Shown: in pieces, positions 3,206 to 35,032 of the stretch
Position numbering within the stretch: the stretch's first letter is position 1
Layout of the letters: every line of letters begins with the position of its first letter
The notes under the pieces: model-generated
Told to the model about the DNA's origin: nothing
The model's input: only the letters and a program-made list of their open reading frames with translations
The model's database searches: none
Translations under genes and position numbers: made by a program
Assembly: GCA_944325075.1 (NCBI GenBank)
Contig: CALUYU010000023.1
Location: forward strand, 1-35,072
DNA: 35,072 bases
DNA from: Candidatus Gastranaerophilales bacterium
Lineage (GTDB): Bacteria > Cyanobacteriota > Vampirovibrionia > Gastranaerophilales > Gastranaerophilaceae
Direction: 5' to 3'

Positions 3206-3643
3206 ATGAAAGCATTAATTCAAAGGGTAAAACACGCGTCAGTCACAATAAATTCGGAACTATATTCCAAAATAGGAAACGGACTTCTGGTTCTTCTTGG
3301 GGTGGAAAAAGGCGATAGTGAAGAAAATGCAAAAAATTTAGCAAAAAAGCTCTCCTCTCTCAGAATTTTTGAAGACGAAAATGAAAAAATGAACAAATCC
3401 ATACTTGATGTAAAAGGTGAAATGCTTGTTGTTTCACAATTTACATTATGCGGAGACTGCAAAAAAGGTACCCGCCCAAGTTTTGATCGTTCTGCCCCGC
3501 CGGAAATTGCAGAAGACTTGTACCAAAAGTTTATCTCTTACGTTAAAGCCGAAAATATCCCTGTTAAAACCGGAAAATTCCGTGCAATGATGGATGTAGA
3601 ACTTTTAAATAACGGGCCTGTAACATTTTTGATAGAAAAATAA
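3206..3643 (+). CDS. dtd: D-aminoacyl-tRNA deacylase
   Basis: Dtd hydrolyses D-aminoacyl-tRNAs (and Gly-tRNA-Ala) so that D-amino acids are not used by the ribosome. It acts in the cytosol as a homodimer with active sites at the interface. The 145-residue length is exact for the family. The diagnostic SQFTL lies near residues 77-81, GTRPSF near 87, and the C-terminal NGPVT carries the Gly-cisPro chirality filter. The N-terminal MKALIQRVKHASV is typical. It is divergent from the small gene at 2757 and stands alone before the promoter of the next operon. Confidence 0.97.
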   Translation: MKALIQRVKHASVTINSELYSKIGNGLLVLLGVEKGDSEENAKNLAKKLSSLRIFEDENEKMNKSILDVKGEMLVVSQFTLCGDCKKGTRPSFDRSAPPEIAEDLYQKFISYVKAENIPVKTGKFRAMMDVELLNNGPVTFLIEK

Positions 3644-3653
3644 TTTTAACCTC

Positions 3654-3681
3654 TTGATTATTTTAACATTTATGTTATAAT
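3654..3681 (+). promoter_or_regulatory. Sigma-70-type promoter for the 3802-rimM-trmD operon
   Basis: TTGATT at 3654-3659 and TATAAT at 3676-3681 are separated by 16 bases. The predicted start near 3688 gives a 5' leader of about 114 bases before the ATG at 3802. That leader is very AT-rich and I see no known riboswitch in it. Confidence 0.65.
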
Positions 3682-3801
3682 TAAATATGTAAAGATATAT
3701 CATAGTTGTAAATTTACTTGAGGATTAATTATTAATTTTAAATTTAAAAACAGTTGTACTTTAGTTTATGAGATTATTTTTTAATTAAGAGGCTTTTAAA
3801 T

Positions 3802-4869
3802 ATGTATGTAAACAAATGCGTCAAGTGCGGTCGAGAATTTGAGACAAAAAACCCCAAAAGAGTTATTTGTCCGGATTGCTTATACCCGGATAAGAAAATG
3901 ATGATCAATGCACCTTCAGATGAGGGTTCGGCAGCCGCATCATCACTGTCGGAACAACCGGAGGTGTCTGCCCCTCAACAAGAACAGCTTGGAGGCTACA
4001 GCACAGAAAATCAGCCTCAGTTTTATAACAGTTATAGCGCAGGAGAAGGCCGTCCGAGACCAACACGTTCATATAACCAAAACAGCGGATATAATTCAGG
4101 TCGTCAAGGCGGTTATTCAAGACGTGATAACCAAAACAGCTCATACAATAGAGGAAATTATTCCAACCGTCAACAAAGTGGTTATCCAAGACGCGATAAT
4201 CAAGGAGGCTACAACCGGAGCGGATATCAAAACAGACCTCAGCAAGGAGGTTATAACCGGAACAGACGACCTCAGCAAGGAGGTTATAACCGCAACGGGT
4301 TTGGCAATAAACGTCCTATGAATAAAAATAAAGCCCCAAAACAACTTCTTGTAAGTAAAGAACAATTGGAACAAATTGAATTGCTGTACAAGGCAATGCT
4401 GCCACTTCCAAATCCGGACGCACATGAAGTTATCGGTGAAAAAATCGGTTTGGAACCAAGAAAAGTATTTTTCGGGATTAACCTTGTAAGACAGAAAATG
4501 ATGCTGCCTAAACTTCCGTTCCCGAAACGGAAATTGGCAATTACTCCGGATCAACTTTTTGCAATTAAAAACTTATATGAACCATTGCTGCCGCTGCCTC
4601 CGATTGGCTGCCACAAAATAATTGCTGCACAGTTAAAAATGGACGAATGGAGAGTTCATGTAGGTATCGGATTAATTCGCTCACAAATGGGATTGCAGCG
4701 TTGGAACCAGGAAAGAGACGATATTCCTGAAGAATTTAAAACAAAAAAAGAAGCTGAGCCGGTGGCAGTAACATCAGAAAGCACATCTGAGGAAACAGCT
4801 GCCCAGACTGAAGAAAAACCTAAACGCGGCAGAAAACCTAAGAAAACAGAAGAACCGGTTGAAGAATAA
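3802..4869 (+). CDS. Zinc-ribbon protein with RGG/YGG-like low-complexity region and twin C-terminal repeats
   Basis: This 355-residue protein heads the rimM-trmD operon. Residues 1-30 form a zinc ribbon (CVKCGREF then CPDC). Residues about 65-170 are low complexity, rich in Gly, Tyr, Asn, Arg and Gln with repeated GGYNR/GYPRRD units like RGG/YGG RNA-binding domains. Two imperfect repeats of about 60 residues follow: LLVSKEQLEQIELLYKAMLP (about 182) and LAITPDQLFAIKNLYEPLLP (about 247), each then xIGxxxVxxGIxLIRxxM-like. The acidic tail ends with RGRKPKK, an AT-hook-like motif. Its operon position is where many bacteria place a small KH-domain RNA-binding protein, so a ribosome or tRNA-related RNA-binding role is plausible but inferred. 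A Shine-Dalgarno (AAGAGG) precedes the ATG. Stop and rimM start are one base apart. Confidence 0.85.
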   Translation: MYVNKCVKCGREFETKNPKRVICPDCLYPDKKMMINAPSDEGSAAASSLSEQPEVSAPQQEQLGGYSTENQPQFYNSYSAGEGRPRPTRSYNQNSGYNSGRQGGYSRRDNQNSSYNRGNYSNRQQSGYPRRDNQGGYNRSGYQNRPQQGGYNRNRRPQQGGYNRNGFGNKRPMNKNKAPKQLLVSKEQLEQIELLYKAMLPLPNPDAHEVIGEKIGLEPRKVFFGINLVRQKMMLPKLPFPKRKLAITPDQLFAIKNLYEPLLPLPPIGCHKIIAAQLKMDEWRVHVGIGLIRSQMGLQRWNQERDDIPEEFKTKKEAEPVAVTSESTSEETAAQTEEKPKRGRKPKKTEEPVEE

Positions 4870-4870
4870 T

Positions 4871-5383
4871 ATGGAGAAGTATATTTCCATCGGGAAAATC
4901 ATAAACTTTCACGGTATTAAAGGAGAAGCCAAAGTTGGTTTTACTAAAGGCCAGGAGGATTTCGTTCTTGGACTAAAAGAGGTTTATGTTAAATCTGGTG
5001 CTGAATACAAAACTTTAGAAATTCAAAATGTAAGATTCCATAAAAATTTTGCAATCATTAAGTTTAAGGGAATAGATTCTATCAATGATTTAATGGAATA
5101 TAAAGGTACGCTTTTATTTGTAGAAGAAAGCTACATCCGCGATAACCTTGAAGAAGATGAGTTTCTCATTGATGAGTTGGTTGGTCTAAGTTTATTTGAT
5201 GAAAACGGGAATAAACTTGGATTTGTAATCGGGGTTTCAAACAACGGAGCCAGCGATCTTTTGTCAGTAAAAACAAATTCAAAGAAAATTTGTTTAGTGC
5301 CCTTTGTTCAGGCAATTATTAAAAAAGTTGATATAAATGACAAACGGATTATCATAAATAACCTTGAAGGATTGTTGGAATGA
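4871..5383 (+). CDS. rimM: Ribosome maturation factor RimM
   Basis: RimM binds ribosomal protein S19 and assists maturation of the 30S head. The N-terminal domain opens with ISIGKIINFHGIKGEAKV, and the C-terminal PRC-barrel half contains DELVGLSLFDENGNKLGFV and ends with LVPFVQAIIKKVDINDKRI. About 170 residues is standard. I choose the ATG at 4871 because the family begins at this position; an in-frame TTG at 4859 would add only MKNN inside the previous gene. The gene overlaps trmD by four bases (ATGA), so the two are translationally coupled. Confidence 0.95.
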   Translation: MEKYISIGKIINFHGIKGEAKVGFTKGQEDFVLGLKEVYVKSGAEYKTLEIQNVRFHKNFAIIKFKGIDSINDLMEYKGTLLFVEESYIRDNLEEDEFLIDELVGLSLFDENGNKLGFVIGVSNNGASDLLSVKTNSKKICLVPFVQAIIKKVDINDKRIIINNLEGLLE

Positions 5384-6078
5384 TTTTTGATGTAATAACT
5401 TTATTCCCTGAAATGGTAGAGAATTATTTTAGTTACAGCATACTTAAGCGTGCGGTAGAAGCGGGAATAATACATGTTAATACAACAAATCCACGGGATT
5501 TTACGGAAAATAAACACAAAAAAGTTGACGATATGCCATACGGGGGTGGAGCCGGAATGGTTCTAATGCCTCAGCCGTATGTGGATGCATATGAGAGTGT
5601 TCCAAAACTTGAAAACACGTTAACAATAATGCTTTCCCCTCAAGGAGAACCGCTTACGGATAAAATTGTAAATAAGCTTAGCCAATACAATCAACTGATT
5701 ATGCTCTGCGGGCATTATGAAGGATTTGATGAAAGGATAAGGGAAATAATTAAGCCCAAAGAAATTTCAATCGGGGATTTTGTCCTAACCGGCGGAGAAC
5801 TTCCGGCGCTATGCCTGATTGATGCAGTAAGCCGTAAAATTGAAGGTACATTGGGAAAAATAGAATCGGCAGATGAGGATAGCTTTTCAAACGGACTCCT
5901 TGAATATCCTCACTACACACGGCCAAGAGAATATCGGGGGCTGAAGGTTCCCGAGGTATTGCTCAACGGGAATCATAAAGAAATAAATGAATTCAGACTG
6001 AAAAAATCAATTGAACGCACCCAAGCTAAGCGGCCGGACTTATATGAAAAATATTTAAACAGCAAAAAAGGTAGTTAG
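5380..6078 (+). CDS. trmD: tRNA (guanine37-N1)-methyltransferase
   Basis: TrmD transfers a methyl group from S-adenosylmethionine to N1 of G37 in tRNAs with G36, which prevents +1 frameshifting. It is a SPOUT trefoil-knot homodimer. Visible signatures are MPYGGGAGMVLMPQP (about 51-65), LCGHYEGFDERI (about 108-119), SIGDFVLTGGELP (about 129-141) and EYPHYTRP (about 172). The 232-residue length is typical. It overlaps the end of rimM by ATGA. The usual downstream rplS is absent here; a convergent TSCPD gene follows instead. Confidence 0.97.
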   Translation: MIFDVITLFPEMVENYFSYSILKRAVEAGIIHVNTTNPRDFTENKHKKVDDMPYGGGAGMVLMPQPYVDAYESVPKLENTLTIMLSPQGEPLTDKIVNKLSQYNQLIMLCGHYEGFDERIREIIKPKEISIGDFVLTGGELPALCLIDAVSRKIEGTLGKIESADEDSFSNGLLEYPHYTRPREYRGLKVPEVLLNGNHKEINEFRLKKSIERTQAKRPDLYEKYLNSKKGS

Positions 6079-6097
6079 GTTATAGAATAATAACCTT
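6077..6097. terminator. Weak stem-loop between trmD and the convergent TSCPD gene
   Basis: AGGTTAT and ATAACCT form a 7-bp stem just after the trmD stop. The T-rich tract is short, so termination here is uncertain. Confidence 0.35.
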
Positions 6098-6128
6098 TAT
6101 CACTACAAAATTAAGGTCAAAGAATAGA

Positions 6129-6395
6129 TTACGAAGCCGGAGTTGAAGCTTTATAAGAAATCAAACACTTTGCAAGCTGGTCAGGGCAGCTTGTAGATTT
6201 ACCGCCGCATGGAATGCCCTGAAACTTTTCAATAACATCATCAATCTTCATCCCTTTGACAAGATTTCTTATTCCAAGCAAATTTCCCGGACATCCGCCG
6301 AGAAAGTCCACATCTTCAATTACATCATTATTAAGTTTAATTTGCATCATCTTACAGCAAACACCCTGAGGGCTGTATTGCAAAACTTCCGTCAT
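6129..6395 (-). CDS. TSCPD-domain protein (TIGR03905-like)
   Basis: This 88-residue cysteine-rich protein matches the small TSCPD family, recognised by GIPCGGKSTSCPDQLAKCL near the C-terminus and LGGCPGN in the middle. Two further Cys occur in QGVCCKMMQ. TSCPD domains are also found at the C-terminus of some ribonucleotide reductases, and the cysteine pattern suggests metal or redox chemistry. The role of the stand-alone form is unknown. I place the start at 6395 because AAGGAGA lies at good spacing upstream; a longer frame from 6440 has no such signal and would run toward the divergent crcB promoter. Confidence 0.85.
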   Translation of the reverse strand: MTEVLQYSPQGVCCKMMQIKLNNDVIEDVDFLGGCPGNLLGIRNLVKGMKIDDVIEKFQGIPCGGKSTSCPDQLAKCLISYKASTPAS

Positions 6396-11672: not shown

Positions 11673-12488
11673 ATGAATAAGTTATTAAATATGCTTAATT
11701 TAACTAACATCAATCATTTTAATGTTACCAATATTCCCATTGCTTCACACGCAACGACGTATCACGTAAGAGAGGACTTAGCTCCGAAAGCCGCTTTTAC
11801 TCTTGCTGAAGTTCTTATAACCTTGGGGATTATTGGTGTGATCGCTGCAATGACATTGCCGACATTGATTGCAAAATATCAGAAGAAAGTAACTGTTGTT
11901 AAGCTGCAAAAAGCCTACACAACTTTAGCTCAGGCCGTTGAAAAGTCTAAAAGCAAATACGGTGATATTTCAGGATGGGATTATACTTACGGTAATGATG
12001 TAAATAGCGATACACAAAAAGAGATGTTTACCAAATTTGTACATACATATATTACTCCAAACTTGTTAATCAGTGAAGATTGCGGGTACAAAAATGAAAA
12101 AAACTGCAAAAATCCTAAGGTTTGCTCATCATCAAATAGTTCTTTCTGTGTAGATATTGCAGACGGCTACTACTTTATTACACCTGAAGCAAGATACTCT
12201 ATAAGCCAGGATAATAATGCCGGAACTTCTATAAACAGATTTGGGGTTAAGATAGATATAAATGGGAATGAAGGGCCGAATTTATTTGGAAGAGATGTAT
12301 TTTACGGCTTTATTGAACCAACAAGAAACAGATTTGAATTTATTGGAGCAGAATTGCTGTTCTCACGCGAACACATGATAACGGATACAAGCGCCTGGGG
12401 ATGCAACAAGGCATCAAATTACAAAATGTATTGCGGAGCAATAATTCAAATAGACGGCTGGCAAATTAAAGACGACTACCCGTGGTAG
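11673..12488 (+). CDS. Prepilin-type pseudopilin-like protein (locus A)
   Basis: This 271-residue protein carries a type IV pilin/type II secretion prepilin signal: FTLAEVLITLGIIG begins at residue 42, with Glu at mature position 5 and a long hydrophobic helix. The leader is unusually long (41 residues against the usual 6-25), and its end (ASHATTYHVREDLAPKA) resembles the leaders of loci B and C. The mature body has several Cys (CGYKNEKNCKNPKVC, WGCNKASNYKMYCG), probably disulfide-bonded outside the cell, and ends with DGWQIKDDYPW. Pseudopilins are processed by PilD-like peptidase and assembled at the inner membrane. GGAGG precedes the ATG. No pilus assembly genes lie nearby. An orphan leader frame lies tail-to-tail downstream. 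Confidence 0.88.
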   Translation: MNKLLNMLNLTNINHFNVTNIPIASHATTYHVREDLAPKAAFTLAEVLITLGIIGVIAAMTLPTLIAKYQKKVTVVKLQKAYTTLAQAVEKSKSKYGDISGWDYTYGNDVNSDTQKEMFTKFVHTYITPNLLISEDCGYKNEKNCKNPKVCSSSNSSFCVDIADGYYFITPEARYSISQDNNAGTSINRFGVKIDINGNEGPNLFGRDVFYGFIEPTRNRFEFIGAELLFSREHMITDTSAWGCNKASNYKMYCGAIIQIDGWQIKDDYPW

Positions 12489-15604: not shown

Positions 15605-15946
15605 ATGAAAAAGTTATTGATCTCATCTATGGTGTTTACAGTTATGCTTACGCCGGCAGCCATTGCCGCAACTTCCGATACCGGCACAACTTACACAGAA
15701 AAATTTATACAAAAACATACACAAAAATTAGTTGATACTGAAAAGAAACTCCAGGAACAACAAAAAGCTAACCAGGAAGCCGCTGAAGCTAAACGCCAGG
15801 CAAATCAGGAAGCTTGGGAACAGAAAAAACAAGAGTGGAAAGACCAGCAGGAACAAAAACAAGCTGAAAATGAGAAAAATAAACAAGAACTTCAGCAAAA
15901 AATTCAAAAGAAAAAACAAGCTTGGAAAGATTTGATATCTGAATAA
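15605..15946 (+). CDS. Secreted Gln/Lys-rich coiled-coil protein
   Basis: This 113-residue protein has a signal peptide (MKKLLISSMVFTVMLTPAAIAA, cleavage near 22), then an almost continuous charged helix rich in Lys, Gln, Glu and Ala with heptad-like spacing, ending with KKKQAWKDLISE. It is probably a periplasmic coiled coil. It is not of a family I can name. AAAGGAG precedes the ATG. Its downstream neighbour has the same plan (signal peptide, K/Q/A-rich helix, WKEL near the end), so the two are likely tandem paralogs. Confidence 0.72.
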   Translation: MKKLLISSMVFTVMLTPAAIAATSDTGTTYTEKFIQKHTQKLVDTEKKLQEQQKANQEAAEAKRQANQEAWEQKKQEWKDQQEQKQAENEKNKQELQQKIQKKKQAWKDLISE

Positions 15947-15958
15947 GGAGTCTGAATA

Positions 15959-16284
15959 ATGAAAAAACGTTAGTATTGTTAATGACCGCTGCAATAATGT
16001 CTTCTGGCACTGTTCTTGCAGCAAATACGCAGGAAGGCCCGGTTACAAGGTGGTTGAACAAAACCACATCAAAAATTTCTAAAACAGAGCAATCAAGCTA
16101 TCAAAAAGCTCAGGAGAAAAAACAAAAGGCTGAAGCAAAGAAAAAGAAAGCCCAGGCTAAAAAGGCTGCAAAAGAAAAAAAATTGGCAGCTAAAAAAGCT
16201 GAAAACCAGAAAAAACAAGCTCAGAAGAAAAAACAAGTGGAAACTAAAAAGAAACAATGGAAAGAACTATTTACTTTTGATTAA
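15959..16284 (+). pseudogene. Secreted Lys-rich coiled-coil paralog, frameshifted in a poly-A run
   Basis: AGGAG (15946-15950) stands eight bases before an ATG at 15959, but ATG-AAA-AAA-CGT-TAG stops at codon 5. With seven A's instead of six, the frame would continue as a proper signal peptide (MKKTLVLLMTAAIMSS, then GTVLAAN) into a Lys/Ala/Gln-rich coiled coil ending KKQWKELFTFD. The open part runs from about 15976 to 16284, and its first in-frame start (TTG) lacks a Shine-Dalgarno. It may be a recent pseudogene, a gene rescued by slippage on the A run, or a sequencing error. It is paralogous to the gene at 15605. Confidence 0.7.
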
Positions 16285-19167: not shown

Positions 19168-19743
19168 ATGAATTCCATAAATATCAGAAAAATAGTAAAT
19201 TTAATGGGGAAACACAGTATTTTAGAGGTTAAACCGAGAAAAGAACTGCCCAAATATTTAATATACTTTAACAGATGGACCAGTAATTATACTCTGGTCA
19301 ACTCAGAAACCGGCAAGTCATTAGGTAAAATGTGTGCAAGACCGGAGGCAATATATGATAATACTTATTATCCGGCGAACCACCCATATTCCTCTTTCTA
19401 TATATCCTCCCTCTGGGTCGATCCCAAACACAGAAGAGAAGGGGTTGGCAAGGCCCTGATAAATCTTGCCAAAGTAGAAAGTTTTCGCCGCGGAGGAGAC
19501 GGAAGGGTTCATCTGATTGCGCAGAAACTTAACGATCAGGAATCAAAACCGCCTCAAATATTTTACAGAAAGCAGGGGTTTACATCTCAGTATAAATGGC
19601 AAATTGCAACAATTGACCGATGCATAATGAACAATGAAGAACTACCCAAAAACATGCGATGGATAACCCCAATGTTTCTTCCTATCAAAAAGATATGCGA
19701 GTATTGCAATATTTTTCGAAATAAAAAATATAATATTAATTAG
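19168..19743 (+). CDS. GNAT-family N-acetyltransferase
   Basis: This 191-residue protein has the GNAT fold signature. ISSLWVDPKHRREGVGKALINLAK (about 75-98) contains the acetyl-CoA pyrophosphate-binding R/Q-x-x-G-x-G/A loop as RREGVGKA, and FYRKQGF (about 131-137) is the typical motif B end. The substrate is unknown. GGAG lies before the ATG, 22 bases after the paralog pair, so it probably belongs to that operon. Its stop overlaps by four bases the stop of the convergent pseudopilin B. Confidence 0.85.
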   Translation: MNSINIRKIVNLMGKHSILEVKPRKELPKYLIYFNRWTSNYTLVNSETGKSLGKMCARPEAIYDNTYYPANHPYSSFYISSLWVDPKHRREGVGKALINLAKVESFRRGGDGRVHLIAQKLNDQESKPPQIFYRKQGFTSQYKWQIATIDRCIMNNEELPKNMRWITPMFLPIKKICEYCNIFRNKKYNIN

Positions 19744-20768
19744 AGATTATAAGGATAGTCATCCTTAAATTCCCAGTTATCTAAAATAATAAGACCTGAA
19801 CAATAATAAGGATTACTTTTGCACTGTTCCAGGTGATAACTTCGAGGTCTCGTATATTCGTTTATATTATAATAAGGTGAAAAACACCTATTTTTTACAT
19901 ATGCATTTCCTGCGTTACAAAATAAAAAGACAAATTGATCTATACCCATTGTATTTGGCTGATTAGAACCATTCACGTCAAAAAGAATATCTATACAACT
20001 ACCAGCCTTTGCGGCCATGAAAGATCCATCTGCAAATTTAATTCCGGGAACAGAAGATAATACTGTAGAAGATGTTTTCCAAGAAAAATCATCTGTTATT
20101 TCACCCTTTACATAAGGTGCAATATATTTTACAATAAAAGTTTTTGCACTATTAGTACTTTCTGCGATAGAGTCGTTTAATTCTTCTTCTGATCCGTCAA
20201 CTATAATTTGAACTTTATCATAATCCCAATAACCGCAAGCTCCATAATCAAGTTCTGCCATCTTTATCGCCTGATTCATTATTGAGTAGAATTTTTTTAA
20301 CCTTGCTGTAGTTGTTGATTCCGTAGTATTGGTCAAAAGTGCAGGCAAAGTCATTGCAGCCACTACTCCGATTATGCCAAGGGTTATTAGAACTTCTGCT
20401 AACGTAAATGCGGGAACTAAGGCCCCTCTTACATGACGCGTCGCTTTCCGAGATGTATAAGAAATAGCTTTTTGTAGGTTGGGGTTTCTACCCCAACAAC
20501 ATTTTAATGTTGGGCTGAAAGCCCAACCTACTTTATCTAATACCTCTTTCCCTGATACAGTGCAGATTGTCGCACATTTTTGACGGTGGCTAGATCCTGA
20601 AATACTCTGCGAGCACCCTCCCTTGTAAGCCTCCTTTTCGTCGGCAACAAGAGGAGCTGCGAGTTCAGGATGACATGGTAAATTTTTATTTACCTTTTCC
20701 ATATGCATCCCACACAGCGACGCGTTATAGGGAAGTCCCTCAGGGACAAACCCCAACCTACATCTCAA
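19740..20768 (-). CDS. Prepilin-type pseudopilin-like protein with repeat-encoded leader (locus B)
   Basis: The prepilin signal FTLAEVLITLGIIG starts at 20408, followed by a conserved hydrophobic helix and a variable body with Cys residues (CGYWDYD, CIDILFDVNG, CFSPYYN, YCSG). The end is DNWEFKDDYPYNL, matching loci A and C. The frame is open for 120 residues before the signal. The only in-frame starts are a TTG at 20768 (a TGA lies just upstream) and ATGs at 20708 and 20702. This leader reads through the long repeat (20585-20675) as CHPELAAPLVADEKEAYKGG and through the double palindrome (20473-20531) as WAFSPTL...WGRNPNL. Parallel leader peptides occur in locus C and in the orphan at 12476-12740. 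The true start is uncertain. Confidence 0.8.
   Translation of the reverse strand: MRCRLGFVPEGLPYNASLCGMHMEKVNKNLPCHPELAAPLVADEKEAYKGGCSQSISGSSHRQKCATICTVSGKEVLDKVGWAFSPTLKCCWGRNPNLQKAISYTSRKATRHVRGALVPAFTLAEVLITLGIIGVVAAMTLPALLTNTTESTTTARLKKFYSIMNQAIKMAELDYGACGYWDYDKVQIIVDGSEEELNDSIAESTNSAKTFIVKYIAPYVKGEITDDFSWKTSSTVLSSVPGIKFADGSFMAAKAGSCIDILFDVNGSNQPNTMGIDQFVFLFCNAGNAYVKNRCFSPYYNINEYTRPRSYHLEQCKSNPYYCSGLIILDNWEFKDDYPYNL
20473..20531. repeat. Double palindrome, second full copy
   Basis: Nearly identical to 12549-12607. The flanks are also alike (AGCTTTTTGTAGG before, CTTTATCTAATAC after). It lies inside the open frame upstream of the pseudopilin B signal. Confidence 0.85.
20585..20675. repeat. 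Long GATCCTGAAA...TCAGGATGACA repeat
   Basis: The ends form the inverted pair AGATCCTGAA/TTCAGGAT. About 60 bases in the loop carry further partial pairing (GAGGAGC, GCTCG). It matches 244-330 with only a few differences. A short version without the loop insert lies at 34856-34890 beside pseudopilin C. Confidence 0.85.
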
Positions 20769-34063: not shown

Positions 34064-35032
34064 TTACCACGGATAATCGTCTTTAATCTTCCAGCCGTCA
34101 CGGATAAGCTTAGAAAAACAATATTCTCCAATCGTTGAACATTCTTCCTCTATCTCATCATTTGACTTTTCATATCCGTCAGCTAAAACTCCCTTTTTAG
34201 TCACCTGCATATAAAACGTATCCTTACCATTTTGGTTAGGTCGATTTGCCCCGTTTATATCAACCATAATACGAAAATCATCAATTATTGGTTCTAAAGT
34301 TCCATCTTCTAAAGTCCCTCCGCCTCGACGCACAGACATAGCAAGCACAAATCCGTCTGTTGTAATAAAAGTCCTTCTATATCCAGATGAGACAACGTTA
34401 AATGTACTCATAATTCCATTTGGCATTTGGAAAGGAGTAGGACTTCTATATCCGCATTCCTGGTAAGTATTACATGTTTTTGCCACCTTAAAATACGGTT
34501 TCCAGTATTTCTCAAAATAAGTATCAGGATCACTATGGTCTACATCCCAATACTCAAATTCTCCGTTATCTACTTCTGAAAGCTTAAATGCTTGATTTAA
34601 TACAGTATATACTTTTTGTATTTTTGAAATTGTTTCCTTCTTTTGGTAATTAGCAATTAAAGTCGGCAAAGTCATAGCAGCAACAACTCCGATTATGCCT
34701 AGGGTTATTAGAACCTCCGCCAACGTAAACGCGGGGACTAAGTCCCCTCTTACATGACGCGTCGCTTTCCAAGATGCATAAGAAATAGCTTTTGTAGGTT
34801 GGGCTTTCAGCCCAACATTAGATTTTTGAGCACAGATGGTCGAAAATTTTTGTCGGTGGTAAGATCCTGAAACGAGTTCAGGATGACATAGAGAATTTTT
34901 TATCAACCTTTTCTCTATACGGCCAACACAGCGCAATGTAGGTTGGGGGTTCACCCCAACATAATCTTTATTTACGTCTGATACAGAAAACTTTGATTTG
35001 GTGAAAAATTTGAAGAAAGGTATTTTTGACAA
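34064..35032 (-). CDS. Prepilin-type pseudopilin-like protein, 5' end possibly beyond window (locus C)
   Basis: The prepilin signal FTLAEVLITLGIIG starts at 34729 and is followed by a variable body with the Cys motifs KTCNTYQECGY and CSTIGEYC, ending DGWKIKDDYPW as in locus A. Upstream the frame stays open without a stop to the window edge. Its first listed start is a TTG at 35032, but in-frame coding-like sequence continues beyond it (PQGREGF, matching PQGRQGF of the orphan at 12476-12740) up to a 12-C tract at 35061-35072. The leader reads through palindromes as CHPELVSGS (34856-34890) and VGLKAQPTK (34793-34817). KATRHVRGDLVPAF is shared with locus B. The true start probably lies beyond the window. 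Confidence 0.82.
   Translation of the reverse strand: MSKIPFFKFFTKSKFSVSDVNKDYVGVNPQPTLRCVGRIEKRLIKNSLCHPELVSGSYHRQKFSTICAQKSNVGLKAQPTKAISYASWKATRHVRGDLVPAFTLAEVLITLGIIGVVAAMTLPTLIANYQKKETISKIQKVYTVLNQAFKLSEVDNGEFEYWDVDHSDPDTYFEKYWKPYFKVAKTCNTYQECGYRSPTPFQMPNGIMSTFNVVSSGYRRTFITTDGFVLAMSVRRGGGTLEDGTLEPIIDDFRIMVDINGANRPNQNGKDTFYMQVTKKGVLADGYEKSNDEIEEECSTIGEYCFSKLIRDGWKIKDDYPW
34793..34962. repeat. Cluster of three short palindromic repeats in the pseudopilin C leader
   Basis: GTAGGTTGGGC/GCCCAAC hairpin (34793-34817), short GATCCTGAA/TTCAGGATGAC hairpin (34856-34890) and GTAGGTTGGGGG/CACCCCAAC hairpin (34937-34962). All three belong to families found at 1-428, 12549-12607 and 20473-20675. Confidence 0.82.

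Follow-up and report, generated by a model that had tools for sequence, protein, structure and literature searches.

A clade-specific protein family of Gastranaerophilales with a zinc ribbon, an Arg/Tyr-rich disordered region and two predicted homeodomain-like repeats

The window, as we call the whole 35,072-nucleotide stretch of DNA that was analysed, is an entire contig (C23) of a 2.26 Mb genome that is 99.99% complete, and at positions 3802-4869 it encodes a member of a real, unnamed, clade-specific protein family of unusual make-up. Our preferred reading, to which we give a probability of about 45%, is that this is an RNA-binding housekeeping protein that serves its clade as a stand-in for RRM and KH proteins. 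The analysis directly establishes the architecture of the protein, the kept composition of its disordered region, the extreme conservation of its core, a predicted HTH fold and, in a hand-picked set of genomes, a distribution complementary to that of RRM and KH proteins.

Gastranaerophilales are largely uncultured gut bacteria. NCBI taxonomy places the order Candidatus Gastranaerophilales within Candidatus Melainabacteria, and we take the class name in GTDB to be Vampirovibrionia. Those relatives that carry a name are Candidatus Gastranaerophilales, Candidatus Scatousia being one of them. The window protein had no Pfam or NCBIfam model at cut-off and no row at all in PHROGs, plasmid and phage searches gave no match to it, and among the literature matches listed there was nothing on it.

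Architecture of the gene and its product

We annotated the following features in and around the gene:

3206-3643, + strand: dtd (D-Tyr-tRNA deacylase), the upstream neighbour, by profile match
3654-3681, + strand: putative extended -10 sigma70-like promoter, TTGATT-16-TATAAT with TG before the -10 (10/12 consensus matches)
3787-3792, + strand: putative ribosome-binding site AAGAGG, read by eye and kept before the ATG in the upstream alignment of relatives
3802-4869, + strand: protein gene, 355 aa, ATG start, coding for zinc ribbon, disordered R/Y/G/N/Q region, two homeodomain-like HTH repeats and charged tail (ORF translation and relatives)
3802-3900, + strand: N-terminal C4 zinc ribbon, aa 1-33, with invariant FETKNPKR (alignment and predicted structure)
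3901-4344, + strand: disordered linker, aa 34-181, with a low-complexity GGYNR/GYPRRD stretch at about aa 66-178 (pLDDT and composition)
4354-4515, + strand: repeat 1, aa 185-238, three-helix homeodomain-like HTH (self-alignment and predicted structure)
4525-4533, + strand: KRK basic arm preceding repeat 2, aa 242-244 (K 100%, R 100%, K 91% in 102 distinct cores)
4543-4704, + strand: repeat 2, aa 248-301, three-helix homeodomain-like HTH (self-alignment and predicted structure)
4816-4845, + strand: KPKRGRKPKK, AT-hook-like motif of the charged C-terminal tail, residues 339-348 (sequence)
4871-5383, + strand: rimM, with its start ATG at 4871, 1 nt past the stop codon of the preceding gene (TIGR02273, 135 bits)
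5380-6078, + strand: trmD, overlapping the end of rimM (TIGR00088, 326 bits)

Given the promoter-like site upstream and the closely following rimM and trmD, the gene is probably the first of its operon. A similar promoter pattern occurs in 17 of 25 aligned upstream regions, a count made with a regular expression that does not pick up the site in the window itself. Across 3600-6200, where we looked for an RNA leader of a conserved kind, Rfam gave no match up to E 1. We also observed a second Shine-Dalgarno-like element, GAGGAnnAAT, at 3720-3729 in the 5' leader, some 75-80 nt before the start codon; it recurs by eye in many relatives and is a possible regulatory site.

The ribbon cysteines are spaced C6-x2-C9-x13-C23-x2-C26, and among 16 aligned copies 16 of the 33 columns are invariant, all four Cys included. 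The AlphaFold model gives this part block-mean pLDDT values of 94, 93 and 89. The two CxxC knuckles, the C4 pattern and the confident predicted fold agree with the zinc ribbon described in the earlier sequence-only reading, in which the four invariant Cys would bind zinc. Pfam ribbon rows fell below cut-off, neither zf_Tbcl (PF13451) nor zf_Tbcl_2 (PF23477) gave a row at E <= 1 for the window protein, and a search by sequence for relatives of the ribbon among solved structures found none that was significant (best row RecO, E 0.018).

Nearly all of residues 36-174 have a pLDDT below 50 in the AlphaFold model. Residues 66-178 (113 aa) are 71% G/R/Y/N/Q, and among all closed ORFs of at least 80 aa in the window the richest 100-aa stretch in these residues is the one in this protein, at 0.76, the runner-up reaching 0.38. 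The window copy holds four GGY/GGF, four [YF]NR, two RRD and no RGG triplets; the roughly 100 residues of GGYNR/GYPRRD low complexity reported earlier are there, and the "RGG" label attached to them is a loose one, the protein having none of the repeated RGG triplets of an RGG box. For a wider view we used 116 distinct full-length proteins from loci L001-L030, L053-L132 and L134-L158, leaving out copies without a complete ribbon-to-stop frame. RGG/GGR has a median of 1 and a maximum of 12 per copy and is absent from 50 of the 116. Linker length ranges from 85 to 234 aa, and the sequence turns over while the composition is retained, with an R/(R+K) of 0.82, about 10% Tyr plus Phe, no Trp and a net charge of +8 to +22. 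The preference for Arg over Lys, the aromatic content and the charge agree with the earlier statement that such a composition is typical of RNA-binding, phase-separating regions. At the DNA level, the linker-coding part contains a repeat at 4235-4296 with a 96% match.

Low-complexity sequence of this kind could also belong to an ordinary protein without a shared function, for example an adhesin-like or aggregating filler. The one NCBIfam row for the window protein, a weak, low-complexity match to agg_sub_LPXTH (E 0.13), would fit such a filler, but we consider it very improbable for a protein that is near-universal, nearly always present in a single occurrence and under strong purifying selection.

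An AT-hook has an RGRP core with basic flanks and binds the AT-rich minor groove, and the KPKRGRKPKK motif of the charged tail presumably resembles one. The stretch reads KRGRKPKK in the window copy and KRGRPKK in L156 and L157, and a loose AT-hook-like pattern of our own making is found in 85 of the 116 tails. The AT-hook-like tail of the earlier reading points to DNA, which counts against a role in RNA binding.

Fold and conservation of the repeat core

The two repeats align over 54 columns without a gap and with 18 identities, and their BLOSUM62 score of 88 compares with 21.3 +/- 4.1 for shuffled sequences, none of 2000 shuffles scoring as high, so the twin repeats noticed earlier are well founded. 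Both lie in a core of 131 residues (aa 182-312), for which AlphaFold predicts helices at 186-199, 207-215 and 219-232 and at 249-262, 270-278 and 282-296. A further model, built on a deeper alignment of the core, agrees (mean pLDDT 82, block means 69-94), and its pTM of 0.56 leaves the mutual orientation of the repeats uncertain. By numbering, the KRK arm would correspond to the N-terminal arm of a homeodomain.

HTHs of the homeodomain-like kind mostly bind DNA, and the main rival to our reading is that the protein is a DNA-binding nucleoid or transcription protein, whose two HTHs would hold duplex DNA in the manner of DUX4 or POU proteins, whose KRK arm and AT-hook-like tail would add minor-groove contacts and whose Arg/Tyr region would recruit or condense factors. 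Because of the fold and the tail this stays a strong rival, and we regard it as a distinct possibility. The Homeodomain profile PF00046 matches 35 of 39 cores at E <= 1, the best in L151 with 28.1 bits (E 1.8e-6) at a cut-off of 22.9 bits; the window lies below this cut-off, with 20.8 bits for the core and 17.0 for the full protein. DUX4 double homeodomains fill the first four Foldseek rows with E-values of 0.045-0.092, and no row falls below 0.001; the VIA rows are led by homeodomains with a Z of 6.1 and an rmsd of 2.6-3.0 over 58-59 residues, and at a Z under 8 the likeness may be no more than a common arrangement. For single homeodomains the superposition is at roughly 2.4-3.1 A. RNA-bound HTHs appear in the structure search as single weak rows only (SelB-SECIS, ranks 5 and 22). 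The almost invariant KRK arm and the AT-hook-like tails also suit a DNA-binding protein. That structure prediction of the repeats, which had been proposed as a check, returns an HTH of a mostly DNA-binding class, with matches led by DNA-bound homeodomains, weighs against RNA, and it goes halfway towards the outcome named in advance as refuting the RNA idea, a match to a known DNA-binding fold unrelated to RNA.

The recognition helix, however, argues against DNA. The homeodomain signature is, in the numbering that we assume, W48-F49-x-N51-x-R53 in helix 3, and in the cores listed the PF00046 match ends at profile positions 45-46, short of this motif. Aligned to PROTODERMAL FACTOR 2, the protein has G for W, I for F and L for N, with the R kept, and at these sites in repeats 1 and 2, respectively, the 102 cores have G in 97 and 88%, I in 98 and 100%, L in 100 and 91% and R in 100 and 100%. 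By its defining motif the protein falls outside the homeodomain family, and from the models its repeats are best called homeodomain-like, acting perhaps as a tandem homeodomain. A PF00046 search of whole genomes also does little for DNA binding, with 0 of 23 genomes over cut-off, rows at E <= 1 in 14 of the 23 and likewise in 10 of 14 control genomes, the family's own gene among the rows in G020 and G079 only, and another ORF (G036:C75) scoring as high; this control is weak both ways because its first look missed G117, whose core scores 28.1 bits. By sequence, no relative of known structure was significant, the four rows of a PDB profile search being two homeobox proteins (E 0.14 and 1) and two eIF3 subunit M, and a search of a viral fold library gave no E below 0.001. 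Binding to DNA, if that is what the protein does, would make it a tandem homeodomain-like protein nearly universal in an entire bacterial clade.

The core is exactly 131 residues long in 116 of 116 proteins, 38 of its 131 columns are invariant in a 39-sequence alignment, and every one of the 102 distinct cores has the same K and R in the arm and, in repeat 2, the same Y, H, K, Q, W, R, H and R. The identity of the core to the window copy is higher than the corresponding figure for Ffh in all 10 genomes compared, in comparisons that used two different aligners: 94 v 79% in G017, 89 v 78% in G020, 87 v 73% in G016, 78 v 61% in G039, 76 v 59% in G045, 78 v 59% in G036, 63 v 56% in G057, 70 v 60% in G094, 69 v 59% in G107 and 58 v 43% in G062. 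In four pairs, dN is 0.003-0.035 for the core, against 0.060-0.193 for RimM and 0.061-0.133 for TrmD. The pS of the core (0.36-0.69) is the lowest each time, against 0.56-0.79 in RimM and TrmD with three pairs near saturation, which hints at high expression. Conservation above that of Ffh and a dN below that of RimM and TrmD are what a fixed, universal partner would lead one to expect.

Such a partner might be met through protein-protein contacts, if the protein is a subunit-like companion of the ribosome or RNA polymerase whose folded parts dock on the universal machine and whose disordered region alone touches nucleic acids. The conservation above Ffh, the constant core length and the low pS are in keeping with this, as may be the hydrophobic residues that lie on two faces of helix 3. 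We nevertheless judge it improbable, given that an Arg-rich linker and a basic arm are traits of nucleic-acid binders and that the partner itself is a surmise.

Occurrence, KH and RRM proteins, and gene neighbourhood

The gene was found in 49 of 57 near genomes (49 of 56 within the order), in 209 of 289 genomes of a class-wide sample and in 131 of 292 genomes of a phylum-wide sample, where all 131 lie within its own class and the sampled Cyanobacteria outside that class gave no match. In the class-wide sample it is present in 192 of 193 order members (membership being taken from listing order), the remaining 17 bearers belong to families f9, f14 and f15, and no match was seen in the sampled families f8 and f10-f13 among those listed. 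Bearers there have a single match, except G023 and G318 with two. The order members without a match are, in the near-genome sample, G010 (90% complete) and G046, G047, G049, G051, G052 and G054 (five at 80-88% complete, one at 66%), and in the class-wide sample G301 alone (94% complete). A zinc-ribbon search of G301 and G010 was empty too (best E 0.3), and their lack of the gene reflects either loss or an assembly gap. On 20 genomes without the core, a zinc-ribbon profile found weak look-alikes only and no true copy. Second loci that code only for the ribbon and linker half, either split assemblies or paralogues, occur at G023:C29:66029-66562 and G043:C18:23172-23675.

The strongest sign that the protein should be grouped with RNA-binding proteins is its complementary distribution with RRM and KH proteins, which is suggestive. 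The KhpA/KhpB profile PF13083 is over cut-off in 5 of 48 genomes, all of them among the 16 non-bearers (f8, f13) and none among the 32 bearers, which is in keeping with the KH link drawn in the sequence-only reading. RRM (PF00076) is found in 9 of 20 genomes, the window's own not among them. In 12 bearers searched for both families, KhpA/B is present in none and RRM in two (G057, G062); in eight non-bearers searched for both, KhpA/B is present in four, RRM in seven and at least one of them in all eight. Because these 20 genomes were picked by hand from across the families, the pattern rests on few independent events, the independent units being families, seven with the protein and five without. 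The window protein itself has no KH row at E <= 1 and no RRM row in Pfam. We considered whether a KhpB was hidden in the weak PF13083 rows, and the four that we read by eye were RNase Y (L032), ribosomal protein S3 (L177 and L179) and PNPase (L185).

Complementarity with RRM and KH proteins would be unexpected for a DNA-binding protein, and together with the linker composition and the translation neighbours it is the reason why we prefer RNA to DNA. Two points of the distribution count against RNA: G057 and G062 carry both the gene and an RRM protein, and some members of the order are without the gene.

Among close relatives, rimM and trmD come after the gene, in its own orientation, at all 80 loci, and dtd lies upstream at 65 of the 80. 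In seven other families (f3, f4, f6, f7, f9, f14, f15), RimM was found within 7.5-11 kb of the gene in 0 of 17 loci with eight RimM queries that recover RimM in 14 of 14 positive loci; the f2 and f5 loci, near contig ends, were left out of this survey. In each of the 7 genomes checked there, rimM sits 1.1 Mb away or on a different contig. The earlier association with rimM-trmD holds for the close relatives and was not found in the other families surveyed. Elsewhere the neighbours are dtd directly upstream (L188 in f7, L194 in f4), infC-rpmI-rplT (L192), yebC (L191), gyrB (L193) and gatB (L204), infC, rplT and gyrB being named by eye; each of the nine loci from f9 and f15 has divergent sdaA-type genes beside the gene, which Pfam identifies as serine dehydratase in L200, and a glucokinase-like gene is also among the neighbours outside the window's family, partly by eye. 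Same-strand neighbours with a role in translation (rimM-trmD, dtd, infC-rpmI-rplT, yebC, gatB) thus recur in several families, and gyrB, the glucokinase-like gene and the sdaA genes tell against RNA.

In many bacteria khpA lies near rpsP, rimM and trmD, and the gene had been described as taking an operon place often held by a KH protein. In the one sister-family (f3) locus tested by profile, L211, the gene directly before rimM is ylqD (PF11068, 88 bits), and ylqD-like ORFs precede rimM by eye in L205 and L217. In 5 of 5 loci looked at, khpA is beside rpsP and not beside rimM; the window genome's own rpsP, on contig C1, has no adjacent khpA or rimM. Replacement of a KH gene within the same operon is weakened by these arrangements, and we regard the KH-place reading as weak. 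The dtd-gene pairs away from rimM in L188 and L194 suggest that in the window's family the gene came later to its place ahead of rimM-trmD, which ylqD had occupied.

Proposed function and related proteins

In our RNA-binding reading, the ribbon, the two homeodomain-like HTHs and the KRK arm would contact one and the same conserved, structured partner in a fixed way, for which rRNA, ribosome-bound mRNA or another structured RNA are candidates; a single conserved partner for all three parts would explain the extreme conservation. To these the disordered region, rich in Arg, Tyr and Gly, would bring multivalent RNA contacts of low specificity, and it might also cause condensation locally. The protein would then do, in Gastranaerophilales, the job done elsewhere in the class by RRM-type glycine-rich Rbp proteins and KhpA/KhpB. 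RNA over DNA, the partner, condensation and functional replacement are what we infer. If the protein is the main RNA-binding protein of Gastranaerophilales, it would give a first handle on their post-transcriptional control. A bolder form is that the RRM and KH global RNA-binding proteins were replaced in this clade by a home-made RNP protein, a tandem homeodomain-like module joined to a FUS-like Arg/Tyr sticker region, that organises mRNA or ribosomes in condensates, which we think unlikely.

FUS/hnRNP-type regions are rich in RGG and Tyr. The family's linker is similarly rich in Arg, Tyr and Gly, net positive and poor in hydrophobic residues, but it is bacterial, has few or no RGG triplets and is only a candidate for condensation. 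If the protein is the main RNA-binding protein of its order, its linker would be a bacterial instance of the Arg/Tyr-rich disorder that evolved in the RNA granule proteins of eukaryotes. DUX4-type double homeodomains share the two predicted three-helix bundles and the basic arm, whereas the window protein is bacterial, has neither W48 nor N51 and adds a zinc ribbon and a disordered region. The zf_Tbcl and zf_Tbcl_2 proteins likewise join a small zinc ribbon to an Arg/Gly-rich linker, with a different motif and no HTH. Small zinc-ribbon proteins with an Arg-rich linker are found within the order: one (L193:4432-4740; zf_Tbcl and zf_Tbcl_2 by Pfam) directly adjoins the gene, and another (L239:1249-1611) looks similar to it by eye.

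KhpA/KhpB resemble the window protein in proposed role and differ in having the KH domain that it lacks. The Rbp1-class cyanobacterial RRM proteins likewise combine a folded nucleic-acid-binding part with a glycine-rich disordered part (PMC9333190), and their genome distribution is complementary to that of the window family in the genomes checked; unlike them, the window protein has no RRM, carries a zinc ribbon and two HTHs and has its Arg/Tyr-rich linker in mid-protein. Cyanobacteria need an RRM protein that has a glycine-rich tail for their cold adaptation (PMC9333190), and PMC12475003 connects RRM proteins with the localisation of mRNA.

In three KhpA-bearing genomes of f8 and f13 without the window family, we noted proteins of 340-400 aa (L229:925-2004, L231:916-2115, L232:1129-2151) that have an HTH at the N terminus, which Pfam assigns to MerR in L231 and L232, disordered-looking stretches and a central CxxC..FExxNPKxRxCxxC ribbon that resembles the window ribbon (E 0.01-0.05); they may be a distant analogue of the family.

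Elsewhere in the window, three pilin-like ORFs (11673-12488, 19740-20768 and 34064-35032) have the motif AFTLAEVLITLGIIG in common, and the latter two are extended in frame at the N terminus by long segments that include similar stretches (CHPEL.., KAISY.S.KATRHVRG.LVP). Two adjacent K/Q/E/A-rich ORFs at 15605-15946 and 15976-16284 probably form coiled coils and have, by eye, N-terminal signal-like segments.
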